Positions 6,201-52,874 of a stretch of DNA of 64,000 nt are shown here, one piece after another; position 1 is the first letter of the stretch, and each line of letters opens with the position of its first letter. Source of the stretch: Liolophura sinensis (taxonomy: Eukaryota > Mollusca > Polyplacophora > Chitonida > Chitonidae); NCBI RefSeq assembly GCF_032854445.1, contig NC_088300.1:4154001-4218000 (forward strand), written 5' to 3'. The notes under the pieces were generated by a model. The model did no database searches, was not told the origin of the DNA, and saw nothing but the letters and a program-made list of their open reading frames with translations. Both the position numbers and the translations under genes were made by a program.

Positions 6201-6959
6201 GCAGAGTATATATCTGCCACTAAAAGTGATCACTAAGGCTTATAATACAGATTTTATTCTTACCTATAACTATGTGAAGCATATAAATAAGCTTCTTTTT
6301 TGTTCCAGGTGTAAAATCCTGAAAGTAACAAAATATAAAATGCTTCAAAGCATGTTAGAACCATAATTGTGATAAAAAAAGTTACAATCTAATAATTTTT
6401 CTTTGTCATTAAATCTCATTTGCATCTACATTGACTAGCAAAGATTACACAGGATAAATTTTCTGTTTGTAGAGATCAGTCTGTACTTTGAAAAGCACTA
6501 GGCAAAGCTGCATGAAACTTACATAAAGATTTCTGCTATCAATGAATATAAACAAAATGTATAAAAACACTGATCTACCTGCTACTAAAGCAGCTTCGTA
6601 TAGTGAATATACAAAGTGCTTGGCAAACTGCAGAGGCTTTTTGGAATAAACATCTGACCTATCAAAATTAATGAGGATTAACATCAGCCACAAAGCACAA
6701 CCCACTCGCATGCTGTTTCCTACACAAATGTTTACAAATATACAAATAATCTATGGCAAGGCAGGGATGAGAACATAAACCTCCATTTAAGTAAACAATT
6801 ACAATTTTAAAAATCACTTATTTCCATTTACACGGTTATATCAAGGCACTGATGGAATAATTATGAAGTGTCAAATATACTTATTTTCTAGCTACTACGA
6901 AAATCTTCCTAGTCCAAAAAAGTTTAAATGGCTGTAATCAATCCCTTAGAACTAAATGG
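3290..6959. other. Intergenic interval between countin-like gene and SAV1
   Basis: Short open frames here (for example 4008-4271 plus and 6445-6711 minus) show no recognisable domain or splice logic, and I do not call them. The left part should hold the promoter of the countin-like gene. The right part (about 6250-6959) is the likely SAV1 3' UTR; a minus-strand AATAAA is at 6253-6258. A repeat remnant lies at 4934-5235. Confidence 0.5.
4934..5235 (+). repeat. Interspersed repeat remnant, SINE-like
   Basis: The block beginning AGTCATATGAC and followed by a pyrimidine-rich ACTGTGTCTCCCT stretch resembles the body at 37655-37890 (CAGTCATATGAC, then ATGTGCCTCCTTG). The open frames at 4918-5565 fall in or next to it and look like repeat sequence rather than a gene. 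I could not find a tRNA-like head here. Confidence 0.4.
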
Positions 6960-8582
6960 TTAAACCTTTGTCTCTACATTTTGAGTAATAACTGTCTGCG
7001 CTTGCTCTGTTCGTCCTGGCACAATCTTGTTTTGAGACAGTTGGCTAACTGGAGACTGTACTTGACGTCCAGCCAGCAGCTGTTGTTGATGTTGAATAAG
7101 CTGGACATTTTGGCGAAGTGCAGGTGGTTGTGAAGACTGCTGACTGAAGTTAGACAGGCTGACGTTAGAAACAAGCTGTTGTTGTTGTCCATACTGAGCC
7201 TGTGGTTGCTGTTGTCCATACTGGCTCTGCAGTTGTTGTCCAAACTGGTGTTGTTGTCCAAACTGGCTTTGCAGCTGTTGTTGCCCATACTGGTTTTGGG
7301 CTTGTTGTTGCCCATACTGGTTTTGGGCTTGTTGCCCATACTGGTTTTGAACTTGCTGTCCATACTGAGCCTCAATATGCTGTTGTGCATATTGGTTTTG
7401 CAGTTGTTGTTGGCCATACTGGCTCAGACGTTGAGTCTGTCCATAAAGGTTCTGTGGACCTGGTTGTTGCTGTTGTCCATATTGGCTCTGCTGCTGTTGC
7501 CCATACTGGTTCTGAAGGTACAACTGAGCTTCCGCATCCCCATACTGATTCATGACTGGCTGTGGAAGTCTTGACTGTGGTAACTGCTGTCTCAAAAGTG
7601 ACACCTGATGTAATGGCTGAGATGTAACCAGTTGATTGACAGATTGTTGGGAAGCTGTTGTATGCATAACTTGCTGTGATGAGGGAATCTGACCTACTTG
7701 CAGCTGGTGCTGTTGCCCTTGCAAATGCACTAGTGGTGTTGAAGTCACCACATGCTGCACAGCTTGCTGAGAGATGGTCATCTTGTGTACAGGCTGTGAG
7801 TGTACCTGCTGTAATTGTGGCTGTGTACCAATCATCTGGTGAACCTGTGACTGCACACTAGTTTGAGATGTCACAGGTTGTTTTCCTAGTTCTTGCTGCT
7901 GAGGCAATGGTGTCTTGGCTTGTTGAACTGCTTGTAGCTGATGCTGGCTTTGATACTGTTGTACTGCTGCAGATTGGTGGATTTGCTGAGGATGTGCAGT
8001 CATGGATTGGTGCAAGTGTTGTTGCTGAGTCACAGTGAGATGGTGCACTTGTGATCCTGGTAAATGCCTCATTCCTGACTGGTGAATCTGTTGTTGTTGT
8101 AGTTGTTGAGAGGTTGGCATCTGGTTGACTTGGGTTGATGAGGGCAGATTGTGTCCTGCTTGCTGTTGATGTAAATGTTGATGTCCTCCAGTTTCCTGCT
8201 GCAGCTGGTGGATCAGGGCCTGTTGATGAGCTTGTTGCTGATGTACCAACTGCTGGTTTGCAGACTGTTGTAGAATTGTTTGCTGTTGTTGTTGGTAGAA
8301 CGGTTGGGGCATGTCAGCGGCTTTAATAGACTGTGTAGATGTAGTGGGTTGCTGTCCCTGTGTTTGAGAGAATGGATGTTGTATCTGCAGTTGCTGAGGA
8401 TCCTGACCAGCTTGTTGTTGCAAGTGAACCGCATGCATCTGCTGTTGGCGTCTCTCTATTTCTCTATACAAAGCCATCCTGTATGCTTCATACGACATCA
8501 CTATTTTCTCCAACTCCAACTTTTCCAAGCGAATAAGCATGGCACTAAAATGTTCCAACTCATTCAGTCGAAAAAGGTCCCA
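6960..8582 (-). CDS. SAV1: SAV1 last coding exon: SARAH plus prion-like Gln-rich tail
   Basis: This is one uninterrupted exon from the acceptor at 8583-8585 (TTTTCAG before TGGGACCTT) to the stop at 6960-6962. It encodes residues 410-949. The first 45 or so complete SARAH. Residues from about 456 to 750 are rich in Gln and His with Ser, Thr, Val and Leu (LHQQQAGH and VHQMIG type runs). Residues from about 752 to 882 carry some 13 units of the form (N/S/A)QYGQQ or QFGQQ with few charged residues. The tail ends in a less repetitive segment, [17 protein letters not shown]. Because the frame is fixed by SARAH and stays open for 1.6 kb, the tail is coding by design and not read-through of an intron. 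Confidence 0.93.
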   Translation of the reverse strand, partial: WDLFRLNELEHFSAMLIRLEKLELEKIVMSYEAYRMALYREIERRQQQMHAVHLQQQAGQDPQQLQIQHPFSQTQGQQPTTSTQSIKAADMPQPFYQQQQQTILQQSANQQLVHQQQAHQQALIHQLQQETGGHQHLHQQQAGHNLPSSTQVNQMPTSQQLQQQQIHQSGMRHLPGSQVHHLTVTQQQHLHQSMTAHPQQIHQSAAVQQYQSQHQLQAVQQAKTPLPQQQELGKQPVTSQTSVQSQVHQMIGTQPQLQQVHSQPVHKMTISQQAVQHVVTSTPLVHLQGQQHQLQVGQIPSSQQVMHTTASQQSVNQLVTSQPLHQVSLLRQQLPQSRLPQPVMNQYGDAEAQLYLQNQYGQQQQSQYGQQQQPGPQNLYGQTQRLSQYGQQQLQNQYAQQHIEAQYGQQVQNQYGQQAQNQYGQQQAQNQYGQQQLQSQFGQQHQFGQQLQSQYGQQQPQAQYGQQQQLVSNVSLSNFSQQSSQPPALRQNVQLIQHQQQLLAGRQVQSPVSQLSQNKIVPGRTEQAQTVITQNVETKV

Positions 8583-11500
8583 CTGAAAAGTACAAATTGT
8601 GAGCACAGAAGTTATGATGATGGTTCTAGACTACAGATCAGAAGATAAAATAATTACACCCATATATGTGAAAATATAAAACAAGAATAAACACTGTTCA
8701 TCTCTGCACATGTTAACAGCTTGCTCCAACTGAAACATCCTTTATGAAGTCTCACCTTAAGTTTGTGGTCATGTTCCTGTGGGGCTTTGGAGTACACGAA
8801 CAGCCATTCTGGAATTTCTGACAAACACAACAAACCAACATAACTGTCTGAATTAAAATGTCGACTATGTACAAGTATAAATCATTTTCTTAAGGATGTT
8901 TTGCATTAGGCCTATTCTTTATTTCATAAATAAAACCAATCAATTAATGATGAATTTCAGCCATTGCACGCTGAATGACTTACGATTCGCATTATCTCCT
9001 AAAAGTGAACTAATACAATAATCTAAAAGTGAATTTTCAATATTTTTCAAAATTGTTATAACAAATGTGATAATATATCAAATAATATCTGATATTTTAG
9101 TTTATAAATAGGCAAATATCATTCTGGGGATACGGAAGCTACAAACCTGTGTTAAGGTAAGGGTTAGCTGGCACCAGACTTTGTCTGCTCTCAATTTGAC
9201 AAGGCAACAACTGCTGGTATTGGACATGCTGCAGATGTTGCTGTTTGTAACCAAAGAACATGTTCAGTTGAGGAATTGCCAAGGCACATGGATGTTGGTA
9301 CTGAGCTGTACGAATTATATGACTGAAAATAGAAAGAGAGTACATATTCCAGTCATTGTATTCTGCACAATTCCACTGAAGTAAAATGAAGCACAACAAT
9401 GAATTCAAAGATCTTTTCTTGTTAATGTAACAACTGATCATGTGGGATGTCAAGATGTTTGTATATTAAAATACGCCATCCATTAAACAAGGCATTCAAT
9501 GGCTTTGTATTTTATGGAGTTGTCACTCACTGTGGTGGTAAAAGATACTATGGGGAGTTTGCGAACAAATTTACTGCAGAGGTAACTGCATTTGGCAATC
9601 CCTATACTATGGGTGGCAACTGCAACCCTGTGAATGGCTGAGGAAATGTGGAGGTAGGAGGTAAAAAACCTTCCTAGGTCTTTGATATGCAAATCGCTCT
9701 GAACGATTGTCTATCTCTGTTCTATGAATGGCCACTGGAGAAAAAATCACCAGAATGCCATCAAACTTAAACATGCAAAAGTTCAGAGAATGGGCAAGAT
9801 GTATGGTAAGTATCATCAAAATTTGTGCAGTAGTTTGGGAGGAGATGCATGGATAAAATCTGAGTATGGGAAAAGCACTGTTATGCAAAGTCCTAGAAGA
9901 AGAAGTCCTGTAGGTCTCCTCACAATTGCCTCGTAGTTTGGAGGAGATACAAAATCATGTTTACAGACAGGCAGATGGACAGGGCAGACAGACAGACAGA
10001 CAGACAGGGCAGACAGACAGGGCAGACAGACAGGGCAGACAGACAGGCAGACGGACAGGGCAGACAGACAGGCAGACGGACAGGGCAGACAGACAGGCAG
10101 ACGGACAGGGCAGACAGACAGGCAGACAGACAGGGCAGACAGGCTGAATCCTGTATACCACTCTCCCTCTCCCCTTAACTGTGTTGAGGGGGAGATAATT
10201 ACAATCACATCGACCTGATGTAAATGTTTACAATTCCCTCAAAAGCAACATTAAGTACAAATACTTGCCTAAGGGGCAGACAATTAGTTTGTAATTTTCA
10301 TCTTCATTTGCAAATATGAGTAATTTTATGAGCAAAAAATATGTCAAAAAACTTTTTTCACATGTTGTTATCTGAATGCATCTTTATTCTAATGCAGAAT
10401 TATTATGCCGTAAAACTCGGTGAAAATGAAGGCAAGAAAAAGTTACTGACTGGTAATTTTCCATTTACACAAACCACCATAATGTAATTTGTCAAATTCG
10501 GCGTACGATCGCAATCGTAACTTTGTAAAGTTGAAATCACATTACAATCCCTTTGAGGAAACAACTGTAAACTCAGCTGTAGGTCTTACAATCACTTGTC
10601 ACTATGATCTCTTTGAGCAAGTGGGCCCAGGACTGTAATACATGTTATAACATGAAGAATTTTCAAGGGTGGGGCATGTTCATAATAAAGCATGGTTAAC
10701 ACTGTTCAGTTAAAAACAAGCACAATGCATAAAGTATGATGTTAAAACCAGAGATAAATTCATGCTGAAATCTGACTTACTTTACATAATAAACCCCATA
10801 TTCTTTGGATTCAATACGTTCCCATCCAGCAGGAAGGTTTTCCTTCTCCAGAGGGTGCGACCAGTGAGTGGTCTGAGTGTTGTGGTCAATGTAATATTTC
10901 TTCCCTCTAACTGTCCAGTCTACTGACCATCCAGGAGGTAAGACCATCTCATCTGAGGGGCCACCTAACCATACAACAGTCGATGCACGATAAACAAGCG
11001 TTATGAAAAATCTGGCTACCCGGTAGTTCATCAGTTATAGTTGTCAAAAAATGACAATTTGCTAAACACAGAAGTCTAACCAGCCTGTTAAGAGTTTGAT
11101 GAAGAAAAAAGTGTAATAAAGCCCTTAAAATACTGAACTTACCAAACAAACTCAACTTTTTTCATCACGCTGGCGATGAAGTTTATCGGGGGAGAAACAG
11201 GAATCCCCTACGCATCAAGATATATGTACACTGATGATAATACAAAATGAACCTAGGCTTAACAAAAAAGTGTAACTGGACACCAACACTTTCCCACATC
11301 GATCACAATCCCCTCCTTTATACTTATTAATATTTGGCGATCTAAAGTTTTACTGACAATAAACATTCAAAAAGCAAGCATGTAATTTTCAATAATAAAG
11401 CTGAGAAATACCACCTGGTTCATGTTTACCACTGGACTTATTATCATATCATAGAGCTTTCCTTACACATGCCATTTTATTATAGAGGGAGAACCCAGTA

Positions 11501-13876
11501 ACACATGCAGAACTGGGCAGAACTTCCACATCTGTCATCTGCACAAGTTTTTCACCCTATCACCACCCAGAATCAGCTCAGGGCATGTGCCATACTGATG
11601 GCAGGCCAATCATTCTGAACAAATATCAGTTGCATTGTAAGATCACCTGAACATCTGTACCAGTGTTACAAGAACAGCAGAGGCAAGGTATCTCAACAAT
11701 ATCCTACCCAATGCTGAAAATGAACTATTGTGCATTACAGCAACAAAAGGCAAGCAACTCTCTGCAACAGTGTGACCATAATCCATCCAAGTGACAGAAA
11801 TAAGGGTTAATGGTAGCACTTCATGTATATTAAGCAAATTAAACCAATTTTGGTAGGTGCTGTGACTGACCTATAGCCTGCAGTTCTGTGAGCTGTGTGT
11901 CTGGCTGGGCACAGGGCTGGGTGAGGTGAGGGTTGGGATCCTGAGACGCAGCAACTCTCCCAGTCTGTTTGGTGGACTGCTGAGCATACTGGTTTCTAAT
12001 TTGCTGATGGTACTGCTGGATTTGGACGTTTTCATCAAACTGATTATAATACTCAGCTGAAAAATTGCCCTGACTTTGGTGCTTCTCACTCAGCTCTGAA
12101 AAAAAAAACAAAAAAAAAACACGATACCAAAGACGTTGATGTTAGGCCACTTGAAACTTACACTAATGTTCAAAGTGATACATGTGTATACAAAATCGTA
12201 AACGCAAACACAAAGAATGTATTTTTGGATTCAATTTGATGGTTTGAAGGTTTTCTGAACTTAAAAGCTCTGACATTACTAGGCTGTCAGGAACAGTGAT
12301 CTCAAACTAGAGGGAAGTGCTACATGTGTATCAGACAGATTGAAAGACCAGCATTTCAAATGGGACATACAGCCAGGATAAAGATGAGGGATCACTATTG
12401 TTAATCTTGTGTTTTCATTACCGCTGAGAACAGGACACTAAACACCAAGTGACTGAACCTACCTTCTGTATTGCCACAACTGTGGTCCAGTCTTTTGGCC
12501 GTGGTCTGACTTTCAGAATCCGGTGTTTTATGTTTGTTCACAAGTCGGCTGTGTTGTTGTATGGTACTAAGGTTTTGGTAGTGGCCACTGGAGCTTCGTG
12601 TTACCCCTGGGGAGGGTGTGTCTCTCCCTGAGCCGTATGGCTCTGAGTGGTGACTACCATCTGAGCCGACCGACAGGCGGTCAAAGGTATCAGGGGCAGA
12701 CAACCCATGAGTGAGAGGTGCTCCTGTCTGGTACTGAGAAATTTCCTCGTCACCTTCCCCTGTGAGAGGAGATCGCACATGACGGCCAGATATGGGTGTT
12801 ATGGGTCGAAGAGCTGGGCTTAGCCCATAGTGTAGAGGTGATTTGTAGCCTCGGGGAAACACAGTTTGGACCCCACTGGGTTGCGGAATGTAGGAACCTG
12901 GAGATTTAGCACTACGTCTTTGAAAACTTGTAACTTGTCTCACTGGTGTGTGGTAGTCTAAAACATGATAAAAACTCAAGATGACAAAAACCTTCAACTC
13001 ACAGCTTAAATGTCAAATGACATTATGTAATCCATTGTCTTGCACAGAGGATGTCTGACACAAAGAAAAAGTGTTCTGCAATCTATTTGACAAGCTGCTA
13101 AGAATGTCCATGACAACCGTCATCTTAACTGTAAGCCCTTGAAATACTTAGTTTACAGTACAGTAACTGTAAAAGCTGTTGTGAGACATCTGACTTGTTG
13201 TTATTTACTCAAATCAACCATGCCCATATTTAGTTACATCTGCAACAAATCTATGATTCTATCCACTCCTAGGTCCCACTTCTTTGTTACCTTAACAATA
13301 CTATACAACTTTTCTTTGTATCACATAAACTGTTTTCTACATTTTCATTGATCCAAATCAGAGCAAAAGACCATAATGGTACATACGTTGAAAGAGGAAA
13401 TAACTAATAACAGATAAAATAACAACAAATCAATCTAACCTCATTTGCAGGGAAAATAATGGACCAGCCTACTGGTCTCCTATCTTTGAAAACAGAATCT
13501 GGAGTTCCCTTGATCTGATTTATTTGTGACTTTTCAACATACCTGTTGCATAGTGAGAGGATATATTGGCTACACCATAATTACCCAGAACAGAGTCTCA
13601 GCAAACATGCAAATCAACATTTACAGGAGAAATTTCATGTGAATGAATGGATGAGCGTTTACGACAATTCTTGCACTACTTTTATAGAAATTCCTTCTTC
13701 AATACAGGTGAATTTGTGTCGATAGGCAATATGTGGATAATTTCTAGCTTAGCCATGCTTTGGAATATGATTTAAATCAAATTATACTTACTTCTCAAAA
13801 TAGGTGGTGTGTCTCTTTTGACATATTTTCCAACAACACCTTCATTTAGACCTGAGTCCTTCTTTTTTGACAACAT
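6960..13876 (-). CDS. SAV1: Salvador homologue, Hippo pathway WW-SARAH scaffold with long Q-rich tail
   Basis: Seven coding exons, 5' to 3': 13792-13876, 12463-12957, 11871-12095, 10781-10964 (a start at 10952 is also in phase), 9147-9322, 8756-8817, 6960-8582. They total 2850 nt, or 949 codons plus TAA, and every junction closes in phase. The start, MLSKKKDSG...[14 protein letters not shown], matches the vertebrate SAV1 N-terminus. WW1 lies near residues 277-306 (W281, W303, P306). WW2 lies near 312-341 and has Tyr338 in place of the second Trp, as in human SAV1. [11 protein letters not shown] and [13 protein letters not shown] match the conserved linker. SARAH spans about 408-455, with [17 protein letters not shown]. 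Salvador binds Hippo/MST kinases by SARAH-SARAH pairing and helps them activate Warts/LATS. Human SAV1 has 383 residues and stops just after SARAH; this protein continues for about 490 more. Confidence 0.95.
9963..10143. repeat. (CAGA/CAGG)n imperfect tandem repeat
   Basis: Tetranucleotide-based array of CAGACAGACAGG and CAGACGGACAGG units, about 180 bp, in the SAV1 intron between 9322 and 10781. Open frames on both strands here come only from the repeat. Confidence 0.93.
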
Positions 13877-14665: not shown

Positions 14666-17600
14666 ATGTCAGACGCGCAACAAAATATCAGCCTGTCAAA
14701 TAGCCAGTCGGTCATCCAGTCGGACCTCAAAATCAACCCGAAGGAAACAGACTACATCAATGCAAAGTCCTATCTCTTATCGGCGAGTAGTGCCACGGGA
14801 CTGAATTTGTGAGTACTTGTTTCCTAAGAATGTTGTCAAAGAATGACTTACATAACTTACTGATATGTGGGGACAGCTGGCCACCTGTTCACTACCAGTT
14901 CATGCTGGCTTCCTCCCCGGTTGTACCGGTACGTGGGAAGGTCTGTGTGCGACCTGCGGATGGTTTTGGTTCCTCCCACCATAATGCTGGCAGCCGACAT
15001 ATAAGTCAAATGTTCCTTAGTACAGGGTAAAACACCAATTACTGAAATAAATTAAATACCTTACATAGTAAAGTTCAGCAGTATTCTATACCTGGATGGT
15101 TACATTCTATGTTTGCTTTTTTATATTTTGACTGGCACTAACATGCAGTCCAAATAAAAGAGCAAGCGTAGTCATTCAGGCCTATTACACATGCACATGT
15201 TTCAGTCCATGCATGCTGTATGTGGTTTTATTTTGCAAACTCATCGATTTGTGTTTTTGTCTTTTCCCAGGTTTGACCATCTTAGTCAAGTGTTAGCAAA
15301 AGTGTTAAGCGAGAGACCAGAAAATGTAGTTGATGTGTTTGAGGATGTGAGCAAGGAAACAAAACGAGCCAAATTTACCTCACAAGTTGACACAGTTCAA
15401 GATAAACTTGACCAAAGCACAGAAGTTGCCTTAGCAACAATACAGAAGAAATTGTTTTCGGTAAGAAGAATTAATATATGGTGCCCTTATAATAAGGGTC
15501 ATTGAGTTTACTGTTTCCAGCTTTATGCTTTAAATTGCACATTTTTTAAAGTTATTGTCTAAATAAGTCTTAAAGAGAAAATGAAGTGAAGATAAAACGA
15601 CCTTGATCAGAATTTGTTTGCACAGATTGCCATACTGACCTAAAACTCACTTAACTCTTACATTTCTTGTCACTGTGGCGTTGTTGTTTACCAGAAAGGT
15701 GAAGGTGAAGATGAAGCCCCAGAACAAGATGAGGAAGTGGAAACCCCCTTACCTAACCTCATGGAGCTATGCTTCTACTTTGAACAAGCTGCTATTGGTC
15801 TGAACAGGGAGGAAATGATACGTATTTGGCTGGCTTTGAAGACATTAGTTGACAGTCACCCACTTCAGCATGTCCGATTTTGGGGCAAACTTCTAGGCAC
15901 AGAACAGAACTACATTGTGGCTGAGGTGGAATACAGGGAAGGTGATGAAGAAGAGGAGGAGGAAGAAGAGGTGAGAAAGAATATCTTACTACTCTTGCTA
16001 ATTAACAGTAACAAGCATGTTTTCAGTCTAGACCTCTTTGGTTTGGCTATGGCCTTACTTCAGCATATTTGTCAGCTACATGTACCTGGTGAAGGACAGT
16101 GGTTTCCACTGCATTCCTCCATAAACATGATGCTGTCTAATGTACAAGATCTGCTGAAAAAAGCATTTAACTCAATGAAACACCAGCTAGCTGAAAATAT
16201 TGCTAACAGCCTGCCAGTCTATAGGCTGAGCACTAGATATGTTTGGAGCTCTCTTTTTTTGTAAAGATGATAGGTAAAATTAAAGAAACTGCAATTTCTT
16301 GTCTGATTTCAGCCTGAAGTAGACCAAGAAGATGAAGGTCTTAAAGACGATGATGAAGATGGAGAGGATGGTAAGCACTGACATTTCGAATGTTCACAAA
16401 GTAGCTTATTGACATGATTGCTGCTGTACATAGGCATACTGATCATTTAGCTCATACAGTCGGGCTTAGATGTGAATTAGCTGAGAGGCAGAGAGATTAA
16501 AGGCATACCCAGCACCATTTATGAACTCCTTTTGGTTTTGTGCATGTAGTTTTTCTTTGATCACTATCTCATTAACAAAACTAATTGCCAGTGCATAAGT
16601 TTCAGCTTAAAAACAAACTTTATTTTGCCCCATTGTTTCACTGATAGAAGATCAAGAGGAAGATGACACCCCCAAGCCAGACTACAAACCCCCACCTGTG
16701 GTTCCCAAGGAAGACAACAGATCAGGAGCTAACAAGAAAACATACTTTGTTTGTAACGAACGTAAGTGTGTTTAGACTCAACAAAAATATTCCTTCAGAA
16801 ATTTTGCCTGTGTTGTTTACATAAAAATGAAATTCTTTTATATCGAGATTCCTCCTTGTCTTTTCAATTGTTGTTATGTTGAGACCATTCAAAGAAAGAT
16901 GCAATAAGCTGGTAAATATGCAGTGAAGACATAAAATAAAGTGTGTGTGTGTTTCTGATTGACAGCTGGCAAACCATGGATCAAACTTCCACAAGTCACA
17001 CCTTCACAAATTTCCTCAGCTAGACAGATCAAAAAATACTTCACAGGGAGACTCGATGCACCTGTAAGTTGATTTCAGTTTAAAACTGTTATTGTAAGAA
17101 TTTCAAGGTCGCAGAATTTTATGGAATGACTTGATGGAATGATGGGATTTGTAGCATTTCTTGTAACAAAATTATTCAACACAAGCCAAGAGAAGGTTGT
17201 TTGAACGGGTAGCTTTTATGTAAGTTTTTTCTCTAGTATAATTATGACAAAGAATGAAAAAAATATCATTGCCTGACATACATTTTTTAAAATAAATACA
17301 AATTTTAAACTAGAACATATGAATCGTCTCAGAGAGCATGGGTTATTAAAAGGATGACTGTAAAATCTCAGTTCATTAAGTTTCATGTATTTAATGTTTC
17401 AGGTGGTGAGCTATCCCCCTTTTCCTGGTAATGAAGCCAACTATTTGCGTGCTCAGATTGCCCGTATCTCCGCAGGGACTCATGTCTCCCCGCTGGGATT
17501 TTACCAGTTTGATGAGGAAGAAGAGGAAGAAGAAGAGGGCGAAGGTTAGGGATAAATTTGTACCATTGGAATGTGTCTCATGTTATCTTCATACAGAAAC

Positions 17601-18975
17601 GATTTTTTGTAATTTGTTTTTATAACAGTCCGAACAAAAGTTGTCTCCCTTCCTACAAGGGATGGTAGTTCTTCCAACACCGTAGTGGTTTTAACAGCTT
17701 TATTCTTCAACACAGTACATATCTTTCATTTAAATGTATGTTATTTTCCAGTTTAAAGGGAATAATATGTAATGCTGATTTGTGGTTATTTCAGCTCGTG
17801 ACAACTTTGTGGAGAACCTGGATTTTGAAGGCATCCCAGTGCGTGACTTGATAGACCCCACACTGTCAAACTGGGTACATCATGTACAGCACATTCTTCC
17901 CCAGGTTTGTAACTATTTCCTCTCTATAAGTCTATTGTGTCAGCCTAATACATTGGTGACAGTGCTTAACATCTGTCTCTGTAGGAGGCCACTACATTCC
18001 GTCTGAGGAAAAACAGCAATAATATTCACTGGTCATCAGTATTCAAATTTAATAAAATATTATAAACTCACAATTGGTTTCAAGATTTGTGTCTATCTGA
18101 TGTCTGTAGGGTCGGTGTTCATGGTGGAACCCAGTACAGAAAACTGAGGAGGAATTTGAGGATGAAGATGAGGAGGAAGAGCGCGAAGAGCCTGATGAGC
18201 CAGAACCTGAGGTTGGCCCACCACTCCTCACCCCATTGTCTGAGGATGCTGAGATCTCCAACATGCCCCCCTGGACAGCCAAGCTCTCCTCAAGCCTCAT
18301 CTCTCAGTATGCCATTGCTGTGCTCCACTCTAATCTGTGGCCAGGAGCACATGCCTTTGCTTTTGATAAGTAAGTTACATTTCTTGATGTAAAATATGGG
18401 TAAATATTGTGGAGAGTTCCCTTATTATATGTGTACAAAGACTGAGACCAATAAATACTGTAACTTTTATTGTGGCAGCTTCATCTCGAAACAGGAAGTA
18501 GAGGTGGCAGGGTTCCTAAGTCATTTTGTAAAATCATTTTGTTTGGTAAATCAGTTTGTGACATCAGATATATTGAAGTGCCAATGTCAAAGAAGATATC
18601 ATAATCCATTCATAGCTTTGTACTGGATTTTATAGGCAGGCATTGTTTCCCTTCCCTTACTTGATAATTTCTCGGTTTTAAGAATACCAGGAAAGATTGG
18701 TTTGTTGTTTCTATCTTTTTTCTAAATTTGAAATTCATCTTCACAGGAAATTTGAGAACATCTACATTGGCTGGGGTCACAAATACTCAACTGACAACTA
18801 CAGCCCGCCTGCTGCCCCAGCCATACAGGAAGAGTTTCCAAGTGGCCCCGAGATCACTGAGGTGGAGGATCCCACCCCCGAGGAGGAGGCCGCCTTACGG
18901 GCAGCACAGCAAGAGGCAGCCGAGGCAGCTGAGGAGATGGAAGAGGCTGAGGATGAGGAAGAAGATGAGGATTAA
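14666..18975 (+). CDS. RSPH4A: Radial spoke head protein 4/6 homologue
   Basis: Ten exons: 14666-14808, 15271-15460, 15695-15970, 16313-16370, 16648-16761, 16966-17063, 17403-17544, 17795-17904, 18110-18369, 18747-18975. They total 1620 nt, or 539 codons plus TAA, and all GT/AG junctions keep phase. The ATG is the first in frame after an upstream stop. Family landmarks in order: [165 protein letters not shown]. Acidic Glu/Asp stretches separate the blocks, as in other animals. The protein forms the radial spoke head of motile 9+2 axonemes and transmits signals between central pair and dynein arms. Human RSPH4A is longer mainly at its N-terminus. Vertebrate RSPH4A and RSPH6A are paralogues, so this single copy is best read as their common orthologue. 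Confidence 0.96.
14893..15060 (+). repeat. SINE copy 2, in RSPH4A intron 1
   Basis: Blocks CATGCTGGCTTCCTC, GTGGGAAGGTCTG, GACCTGCGGATGG, CACCATAATGCTGGC and GGGTAAAACACC are in the same order as the other copies. The tRNA-like head is missing and the tail is degenerate. Confidence 0.8.
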
Positions 18976-20268: not shown

Positions 20269-22928
20269 ATGGCCGCCAAAATGGCCCGCTACGCTGGCAA
20301 GACATTTACACTGCTCTCAGTATCTTCTTCAAAGACAGGAGCAAGTGAAGAAAAATCTCCTGCTGTCTAACGGTTTCATCCGAAACACAGCAGTTCCCAG
20401 CTGTTGGGTGTTAAACAGTTGCCGGTCGTGAGGAGAGGCACGGAAACTGGTGGGACTAACCGCGCGTAGATATGTGTAAAATCTGTCCCGACACACGTCA
20501 ATATGGCACATAGCCCACTCGGACAGCCCTGGAAGCCTGCAAGCAATTAGATACACGCGACTAGAGATAAGTGACTTTGAATGTGACCCTGCAGTCTTTC
20601 GAGTTGATCTGTATTGAAACATTCAATTTGAATTCCACTGCAAGAAGTGCTGAGTAAAATTTTCTTGAAGACAACAGTGGAATTTTACTATGCACAAAGT
20701 CTTGATTACCCAAGTACCAGATTCCTGTGTAGCACCCCAGCATGCGGTTGACACAACGGATTATGTGATTATTAGGGAAGAAAAATCTGTAGTATTACAA
20801 ACAATGCAGTTGTTCATGATTCATAATGTTTAATAGTTTAATCTTAAACATGCACTGTGCCGCACACATTTTAATCGAGAAGATCTATTTCTAAAGTATA
20901 GTATTATCATTGACGAACAGTTCACGAATAATGATCAAATACTTCAATTTATTACCATATTAGTTTTATTCAGGTGGCTATAGGTACTGGGAAAGCTATT
21001 GTTATTTGAGCAGTAGATGAAACTGCTCACCCTGACCGCGTCATTTATTCCAATTTCAGCAAGACGACCTTTCATGTACAGGCTACATGTGTAAATAATT
21101 TCGCGTTAAATCGGTCCAGTTAATGAGGCTTGATCGTCATGGGGTTGTCTTCCGAGGTCGGCTAGAGTTTTCTTTTGCCCCAGTTACATACATGATTCCA
21201 GCATGAGAATATTTCCAGAGATCCATAGCCATCTTATGGATGACTAACTACAGTAAAGTGTCCATGGTCTTTTGAATGTGGAAAAACGAAGAAGAAAATT
21301 CACTCCATTTCACCGAGAAAAGTAATGCGAACAGAGTGCATTGGTGAAGGCCATTACATGTACATAGGCTTATAGGCCTTGCATGTATATGCAAGCCCGT
21401 TTCCTTGGCGATGCCTAGCTTTTGTTCGTAGCACCAGAGTATCCTGTGATTCAGCGTGTCTTTAAATTGGCAGGAATGGCATACTATACTCTGGTGAAAT
21501 ACAAGTGAAAAAATGCTCTTTACAATGTTTCTGTTACTTCTGCGTAAATGCAGTCTACCTATATAACTCTTTAAACAAGCCCACCAGTCGGATGCCGTGT
21601 ACCTTTTGCGTGGCCAACGTAACCTATACGTGATTGTATATATCTGGCTGTGGAGCGCATTGACTGCGTGAATGACGTATTAACACGGTTCTTTTTTAAC
21701 TGATATGAGTTTTAACACTAATTTACGGTGTACGAGGTAGGCTACTAGAATGGTTCACTCTTCAGTATAAGTCAGTCTGCCATTGCCAATGGCCAAAGAA
21801 TGTCTGTCCGCCTTCATGATGACTTCATCGAAATACTCCCATCAGGGTGTCAAGGTCAATTGCTGTTAATTTGTTTTTAATGTGTGTTCAAGTTTCCCTT
21901 ATGGCCCAGCACTAAGGGCCGCTAGGGAAGATTCTCGGTTAACTTAACTTTTAACCACTTTGGCACTTGGCGCACGCTTCACGTGCAAAATAGCAACGTA
22001 TAATCAGGGATAATTTACATATACAAGATATACATTTATGGACGAGATAATACAGTGGTTTAATTTACAAACACAGCTACGCATGCGTATTGTCTAATAG
22101 GTCTCAGTAGCTCTTATTATTATAAGAACAGACATTCGTGACGAACAAACATGAACGCTTCGGGTAAAAAATTTAAAGAACAATTTCCAAAACGACCTCC
22201 AACATAAACCACCAAAGAACTAAAATGTACATGTATATAAAGTAAGAAATTAGGACGGATTAATGGAAAGAGAAGCAGTCAGTTATTCAATTTGAATTTC
22301 CGGTATTTATTTATCTTTTTTTTCATTCCTTGTTTTGGCCCACTGAAGAACATTCTATTGTATAAAGGTGGTGAGGTTTACGAAAGCAGGAAACTGTATG
22401 GGAAGAGTCAGAAAGGAATGGCTGTACCTCAGCAGGCAGCCAAGGAGCCTCATGAGGTGAAGGTAAATGTGCAATCATGGAGGGAGGATTTGGAATGCAA
22501 CCGCAGCAACCTGCGGATGGTCTTGTGTTTCCTGCGGGCTACGCCCAGTTTCCCTCCATCATCCTGTTACTGCCATTGTATAAGTGAAACATTCTCGTGC
22601 ACGGTTTAAAACTCCAAATAAATAAATAAATAAATACATCACTGGTTATGGGCTTATGGTCTCCATCTAGGCTAACTCTTCAACTGATCAAGTTATAAGG
22701 ATCCTCATTCATGGAATATTAAAGTAAGTTTGATGCACTGAATAATTAATCAGCCTACATCGCATTCAGATGGACATGTGGCAACAGTGACAAGCCAAGC
22801 CATCAGAATATAGGCCATCACACCCGGTTGCTTGCTTCCCCGTCATCAGCTCGCGCATCATTTTACCCACCACAACTCATTATTTCCTTTTTTGCCAGAA
22901 ATTGTCACAGAAGGTGACATTATCATAA
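20269..22928 (+). CDS. Possible small three-exon gene, 64 codons, unknown function
   Basis: Candidate exons 20269-20319, 22349-22462 and 22899-22928 (ending TAA), total 195 nt. All junctions are phase 0: CTCTCA|GTATCT, pyrimidine tract then CTGAAG|AAC, GTGAAG|GTAAAT, and TTTTTTGCCAG|AAA. Two in-frame ATGs start it, the second in a CCAAAATGGCC context. The middle exon is the most gene-like, with balanced codons: YKGGEVYESRKLYGKSQK, then PQQAAKEPHEVK. The product would be a short basic protein with a weakly hydrophobic N-terminus. I recognise no family. The 2-kb first intron and its weak donor are the main doubts; the middle exon may belong to a different transcript. Confidence 0.33.
22503..22636 (+). 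repeat. SINE copy 3 (3' part)
   Basis: CAACCTGCGGATGG, a diverged centre, TGCACGGTTTAAAACTCC and an (ATAA)n tail match the 3' half of the SINE family. It lies just after the candidate exon that ends at 22462. Confidence 0.7.

Positions 22929-27628: not shown

Positions 27629-52874
<25,246 letters not shown>

Follow-up and report, generated by a model that had tools for sequence, protein, structure and literature searches.

A Salvador orthologue of the chiton Liolophura sinensis with a long Gln-rich tail after SARAH and a C-terminus close to that of an oyster protein

The 64,000-nt stretch of Liolophura sinensis DNA analysed here (the window) carries a Salvador (SAV1) gene whose reading frame continues for 495 codons beyond the SARAH domain. 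Our overall reading, to which we give a probability of roughly 0.6, is that this protein is a Salvador in which a weakly charged, Gln-rich tail with a conserved PDZ-ligand end would tether and cluster Hippo. The parts of this reading that were shown or are well supported are the open frame, the orthology of the gene, the finding of one copy, QYGQQ repeats that have kept the frame as they evolved, and a C-terminus nearly identical to that of an oyster protein. The conserved ETKV terminus is the clearest functional clue, and it was absent from the preliminary description of this DNA.

The gene (window 13876-6960, minus strand) comprises seven coding exons separated by six GT-AG introns, and its product is 949 aa long (Table 1). 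An in-frame TAG lies upstream of the coding part of exon 1, and the terminal exon is bordered by a TTTTCAG acceptor before 8582 and a TAA stop at 6962-6960. The assignment of the gene to Salvador in the preliminary description was confirmed by matches of its WW pair and SARAH to SAV1 structures. The Pfam WW match falls in two stretches, in keeping with two tandem SAV1-type WW domains, and the two best PDB matches of this region were both SAV1 WW pairs (human SAV1 7bqf, 8.5e-38, 79 residues aligned). SARAH of the Salvador kind follows the segment VPANPY...EIP.WL: the first 60 codons of exon 7 matched human SAV1 (6ao5_B) at 2.5e-08, a value that became 3.4e-22 over 80 aligned residues when exons 5-6 were added, and fly Salvador (6bn1_B) matched part of the VPANPY-to-SARAH region at 6.7e-14. 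We identify the gene as the L. sinensis orthologue of Salvador/SAV1. Human SAV1 (WW45) shares both the WW pair and the SARAH region with it, but spans only 383 aa (residues 1-383 in the accessible part of PMC10015380) against 949 aa and a post-SARAH tail in Liolophura.

Table 1. Window positions of the Salvador exons and of features within and beyond the terminal exon.
Feature	Window positions	Strand	Basis or remark
Exon 1, coding part	13792..13876	-	reading and splice site; first 8 residues as in oyster SAV1-F primer
Exon 2	12463..12957	-	gene reading and assembly match
Exon 3, with small Gln-rich stretch	11871..12095	-	gene reading and assembly match
Exon 4, WW1 and start of WW2	10781..10964	-	Pfam WW 1.3e-16, two stretches; PDB 7bqf 8.5e-38
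Exon 5, WW2 end and VPANPY	9147..9322	-	gene reading, PDB match
Exon 6, directly before SARAH, inside 6ao5 match	8756..8817	-	gene reading, PDB match
Exon 7 (last), with SARAH, Gln-rich tail and stop	6960..8582	-	1623 nt
SARAH (aa 410-454) within exon 7	8448..8582	-	PDB 6ao5_B (human SAV1), 6bn1_B (fly Salvador)
Post-SARAH tail, 495 codons, 171 Gln	6963..8447	-	in-frame reading of exon 7
Tandem array in QYGQQ part	7178..7424	-	Tandem Repeats Finder: 27-bp period, 9.8 copies, 69% matching
C-terminal peptide TQNVETKV (fits class I PDZ-ligand pattern)	6963..6986	-	7/8 residues as in oyster SAV1-R
First AATAAA past the stop	6253..6258	-	about 700 nt downstream

When the assembly (609 Mb) was searched with the Salvador protein as far as SARAH, there were seven matches in all, each to a different exon. 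With the terminal exon as query, the assembly returned the exon itself and one weak place on contig C1 (E 5.7e-4, 26% identity) that has six internal TAG and was taken as noise; the searches of the assembly yielded neither another copy of Salvador nor an alternative exon for SARAH. One Hippo/MST SARAH exon, ending KKKRQQNF-stop, was detected in the genome (Mst1_SARAH, 2.9e-22), such that, within the limits of the assembly searches, a single Salvador gene and a Hippo/MST SARAH partner are both present. Salvador has been described as being without paralogues from fly to human and as being recognised by its two WW domains, in the portion of PMC7035326 available, which does not mention a tail. Single scans of prokaryote and of viral collections with the first 60 residues of exon 7 found no relatives.

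The usual description of SAV1 places SARAH at the C-terminus (PMC6131212, in excerpt), in agreement with the layout given in the preliminary description. This layout, which is usual but not defining in vertebrate-type SAV1, was not found in the chiton protein, as 495 residues follow SARAH in the same exon when its end is set at aa 454; the earlier figure of about 490 was thus borne out. The tail is dominated by Gln (34.5%) and also contains Leu (7.9%), Ser (7.7%), Val (6.5%), His (6.1%), Gly (5.5%) and Tyr (3.0%). By eye it divides into a Gln/His-rich zone (about aa 455-630), a Gln/Val/Thr/Ser-rich zone (about 630-745), a zone of Tyr-Gly-Gln repeats (about 745-880) and a final segment of some 70 residues with less repetition. 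The "some 13" QYGQQ/QFGQQ units reported earlier are reached once the variants LYGQT and QYAQQ are included; exact Q[YF]GQQ units number 11 (nine QYGQQ and two QFGQQ). The units occupy aa 768-876 (window 7508-7182). Pfam returned no family for exon 7 at E<=1, and at E<=10 it returned a chance-level match to Nore1-SARAH (9.6) for the exon and none for the tail. A second, short Gln-rich stretch similar to the tail units is present before the WW domains, in exon 3 (11871-12095). When the assembly was scanned for DNA that spells QYGQQ, 145 forward sites and 44 reverse ones were obtained, whereas with the reversed control pattern the numbers were 52 and 31; among the places listed, the largest cluster was a satellite with 52-bp spacing on contig C7 (261455-264898, at least this far), and the Salvador tail, with nine sites, was second.

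Over the length of the tail the three sense frames contain 0, 15 and 7 stops and the three antisense frames 22, 39 and 19. None of 2000 dinucleotide shuffles was free of stops in any sense frame, the best frame averaging 10.9 stops, and frame-free Markov models of the tail produced an open sequence in 1 of 2000 trials at order 2 and in 1 of 2000 at order 3, occasional occurrences that arise because the CAR-rich composition itself lowers the number of stops. This composition is what could be cited for the view that the frame is open by chance in non-coding DNA rich in CAR, an explanation we group with assembly error. However, the stop directly follows a peptide that is conserved in an oyster, seven of the eight base changes there are at third codon positions, an AATAAA is found downstream, and all 30 repeat matches described below keep the frame. 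A non-coding CAR repeat or an assembly error is very unlikely given the shuffles, the frame preservation and the conserved end, and we put the chance of either close to nil.

For the repeats, a table of units picked by motif and frame was set aside in favor of a frame-blind self-comparison of the tail. The offsets of all 30 internal matches were divisible by three, although the matches overlap and hence are not independent, and 29 of them fall within aa 745-885, so that the test informs little on most of the tail; aa 455-744 alone, at a lower threshold, gave two matches, both in frame. Control arrays from the window, run with the same script and presumed to be non-coding, were in phase 0 in 42 of 119, 7 of 24 and 7 of 26 matches (27-35%); the two larger control arrays were compared at a score threshold of 30, the third control and the tail at 14. 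Two long tandem arrays that served as such controls (window 39016-40509 and 49876-50901) contain several overlapping open frames. Mismatches between the tail repeats were distributed over codon positions 1, 2 and 3 as 6, 32 and 54. As position-2 mismatches are frequent (32 of 92), the repeat part evidently evolves fast.

The comparison with an oyster concerns the ends of the protein. Primers SAV1-F and SAV1-R are listed for Crassostrea hongkongensis, from which a ChSAV1 ORF cDNA was cloned (PMC10164948, in part), and we infer that this pair was the one used for the cloning. Translated, SAV1-F reads MLSKKKDS, identical to the start of the window protein in all eight residues, and SAV1-R reads TQNIETKV, matching seven of the last eight residues of the window protein, TQNVETKV-stop; ChSAV1 is therefore like the chiton Salvador at both termini, in a comparison by primer translation that covers the first and the last eight residues. 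SAV1-F differs from the window at 6 of 25 bases, all third codon positions, and SAV1-R at 8 of 25, of which one is a first position (V/I) and the rest third positions; over both primers, 13 of the 14 differences in 50 bases are at third positions. Elsewhere in a six-frame translation of the window, no peptide matched the oyster end better than 5/8, and of the top eight in the list the Salvador end alone is followed by a stop.

At least one reverse primer of the oyster set, MST-R, marks a protein end, since its translation, KKKRQNNF, agrees with the end of the Liolophura MST SARAH exon. MOB1-R includes a stop, and the peptides of YAP-R (GDNSLTWL), LATS-R (SSSAPVYV) and TEAD-R (HIYRLVKD) also look to us like protein ends. 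The oyster SAV1 qPCR reverse primer (EMERRK) fits best at the end of SARAH, at aa 450 (13/20 bases), and therefore oyster SAV1 also extends past SARAH. Because the oyster SAV1 primers encode nearly the same ends, the end of the tail is conserved, and translation of the tail together with this end, which the preliminary description had left as a condition, is very probable as judged from these sequences. ChSAV1 has been described with one WW domain, SARAH and "patatin (PAT)" domains and with no mention of a tail (section 5, in the part of PMC10164948 available), whereas the Liolophura protein has two WW domains and the tail. The "patatin (PAT)" annotation may be a low-complexity match to a differently named model. 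Pfam PAT1, which we take to match Gln-rich sequence, is a possible source of the label; no PAT1 match was found in the window tail (Pfam, E<=10).

Translation of the full tail could be limited if most transcripts spliced out much of it or ended early, leaving the long form as a minor one. A donor-like site, CAA/GTAGGT after 7698, scores 7.2, which falls among the scores of the gene's six true donors (5.7-10.6), and joining it to an acceptor-like site before 7511 would remove 186 nt in frame; pyrimidine-rich acceptor-like sites before 6750 and 6318, past the stop, could give a form without the C-terminal end. However, this is the only one of the 67 GT sites in the tail within the true-donor range (the next scores 5.5), the 186-nt form would still retain 433 tail residues and the same end, and the oyster primer pair terminates at the same peptide. 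We consider predominant skipping or early termination of the tail improbable.

Class I PDZ ligands are characterized by a C-terminal [S/T]-x-hydrophobic pattern, which is found in the chiton protein at the very end of the chain (ETKV-stop) and in the same four residues in the oyster. From this pattern, we consider it an even bet that ETKV is a working PDZ ligand. Human SAV1 is not known to carry such a pattern at its C-terminus. The Hippo-pathway proteins YAP and TAZ likewise end in a PDZ-ligand motif, that of YAP being established, but both the protein and the motif differ from Salvador and its ETKV. The PDZ-ligand motif is reflected in the name TAZ and is mentioned for Yorkie in the accessible part of PMC3620549, which covers 24 animals including two molluscs (Lottia and Aplysia) and in which no description of Salvador domains was found.

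In 60-residue windows over aa 451-930 the protein contains 27-55% Q+N and 2-10% charged residues, the Q/N-rich and low-charge composition of prion-like, condensing low-complexity domains. A PAPA-style score of prion propensity peaked at 0.113 near aa 808, in the repeat zone, and was about -0.08 to -0.01 over aa 451-600, in the Gln/His zone. The FUS-type likeness proposed in the preliminary description held for about aa 745-880, where regularly spaced Tyr-Gly-Gln units and few charges are common to the tail and FUS/EWS-type domains, a likeness of composition. It did not extend to most of the rest, where aromatics are few and the sequence is rich first in Gln/His and then in Gln/Val/Thr/Ser. The Tyr-dense [G/S]Y[G/S] composition of FUS was not found over the tail as a whole and is approached only in aa 745-880; the tail is Gln-dominated and has 15 Tyr in 495 residues, whereas FUS/EWS-type domains are Ser/Gly-dominated, and the FUS-like share is about a quarter of the tail.

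The tail is probably mostly disordered. A single-sequence AlphaFold model of exon 7 had low overall confidence, with a mean pLDDT of 46.1 and 352 of 540 residues below 50. The model contained the SARAH helix, a helix at aa 503-544 in part of the Gln/His zone and a further, unexpected helix (aa 789-864, block pLDDT 51-72) that takes up much of the QYGQQ zone and that we do not trust from a single sequence without an alignment. Alternatively, in a translated tail the Gln-rich and QYGQQ parts could be neutral filler prone to slippage, within disordered sequence of which only the ETKV residues matter. The repeat array is regular enough for detection by Tandem Repeats Finder, position-2 changes are common among the repeat matches, and the oyster comparison covers the two protein ends only, all of which would suit such filler. 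On the other hand, the Gln codons of the tail are mixed (92 CAA and 79 CAG) with no same-codon run longer than three, which does not resemble fresh slippage, and the low count of charged residues (D, E, K, R; 22 of 495) hints at a constraint on composition. We view neutral filler as unlikely on balance, while according it real weight.

The reading that we favor, a Salvador that tethers and clusters Hippo, would operate as follows. SARAH would bind the Hippo/MST kinase as usual, and ETKV would anchor the Hippo-Salvador complex to a PDZ scaffold of cell polarity or junctions. The long Gln-rich tail would serve as a flexible tether with weak self-association, by which the local density of Hippo would rise and, with it, kinase trans-activation. 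We propose this because SAV1:MST2 condenses, KIBRA needs its disordered regions, Hippo/MST activation depends on kinase closeness and ETKV is conserved. In the available part of PMC10015380, human SAV1:MST2 (SAV1 residues 1-383) is reported to condense without such a tail, and to do so less when the N-terminal disordered part of SAV1 is removed, and the disordered regions of KIBRA are required for KIBRA puncta and signalling. Activation of Hippo/MST depends on the closeness of kinase domains (PMC10015380; PMC6131212; both in excerpt). Since human SAV1:MST2 already condenses, the tail would tune condensation and not create it, and it is somewhat doubtful, if plausible, that the Gln-rich part promotes clustering beyond what its length as a tether would provide. 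We offer only tentatively, as a speculation more likely wrong than right, that the lophotrochozoan Salvador is a two-ended scaffold, with the Hippo kinase held at SARAH and with a long, condensing Gln-rich tether whose terminal PDZ anchor would attach the complex directly to junctional polarity scaffolds.

If the two-ended scaffold were correct, there would be a direct link from polarity to Hippo in the core scaffold of molluscs, a link that the human protein is not known to have. These data suggest that animal groups have different Salvador architectures in a region overlooked by domain annotation, Pfam being silent on the tail. The switching of the Hippo kinase by polarity and crowding is still debated, with Hippo-Salvador clustering as one current idea (PMC10015380, in excerpt), and a Salvador with a low-complexity tail and a conserved PDZ-ligand end would be a natural construct for testing docking and clustering. 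A search of titles and abstract starts in the open-access literature revealed no Gln-rich tail or PDZ ligand on Salvador among the matches listed.

No tRNA was found in the 64,000-nt window. Inside Salvador intron 4 there is a microsatellite-like array of GACAGACAGGCA (window 9950-10140). Head to head with Salvador, with start codons less than 1 kb apart, is a radial spoke head gene (RSPH4A/6A-like) on the plus strand at about 14666-18975, whose ends were placed by eye and one exon of which matched Pfam Radial_spoke at 4.3e-33. A dispersed SINE-like repeat is present in three copies, as recognised by eye, at about 330-530, 14890-15050 and 22490-22640, the first and third of which end in AAATAAATAAATA.
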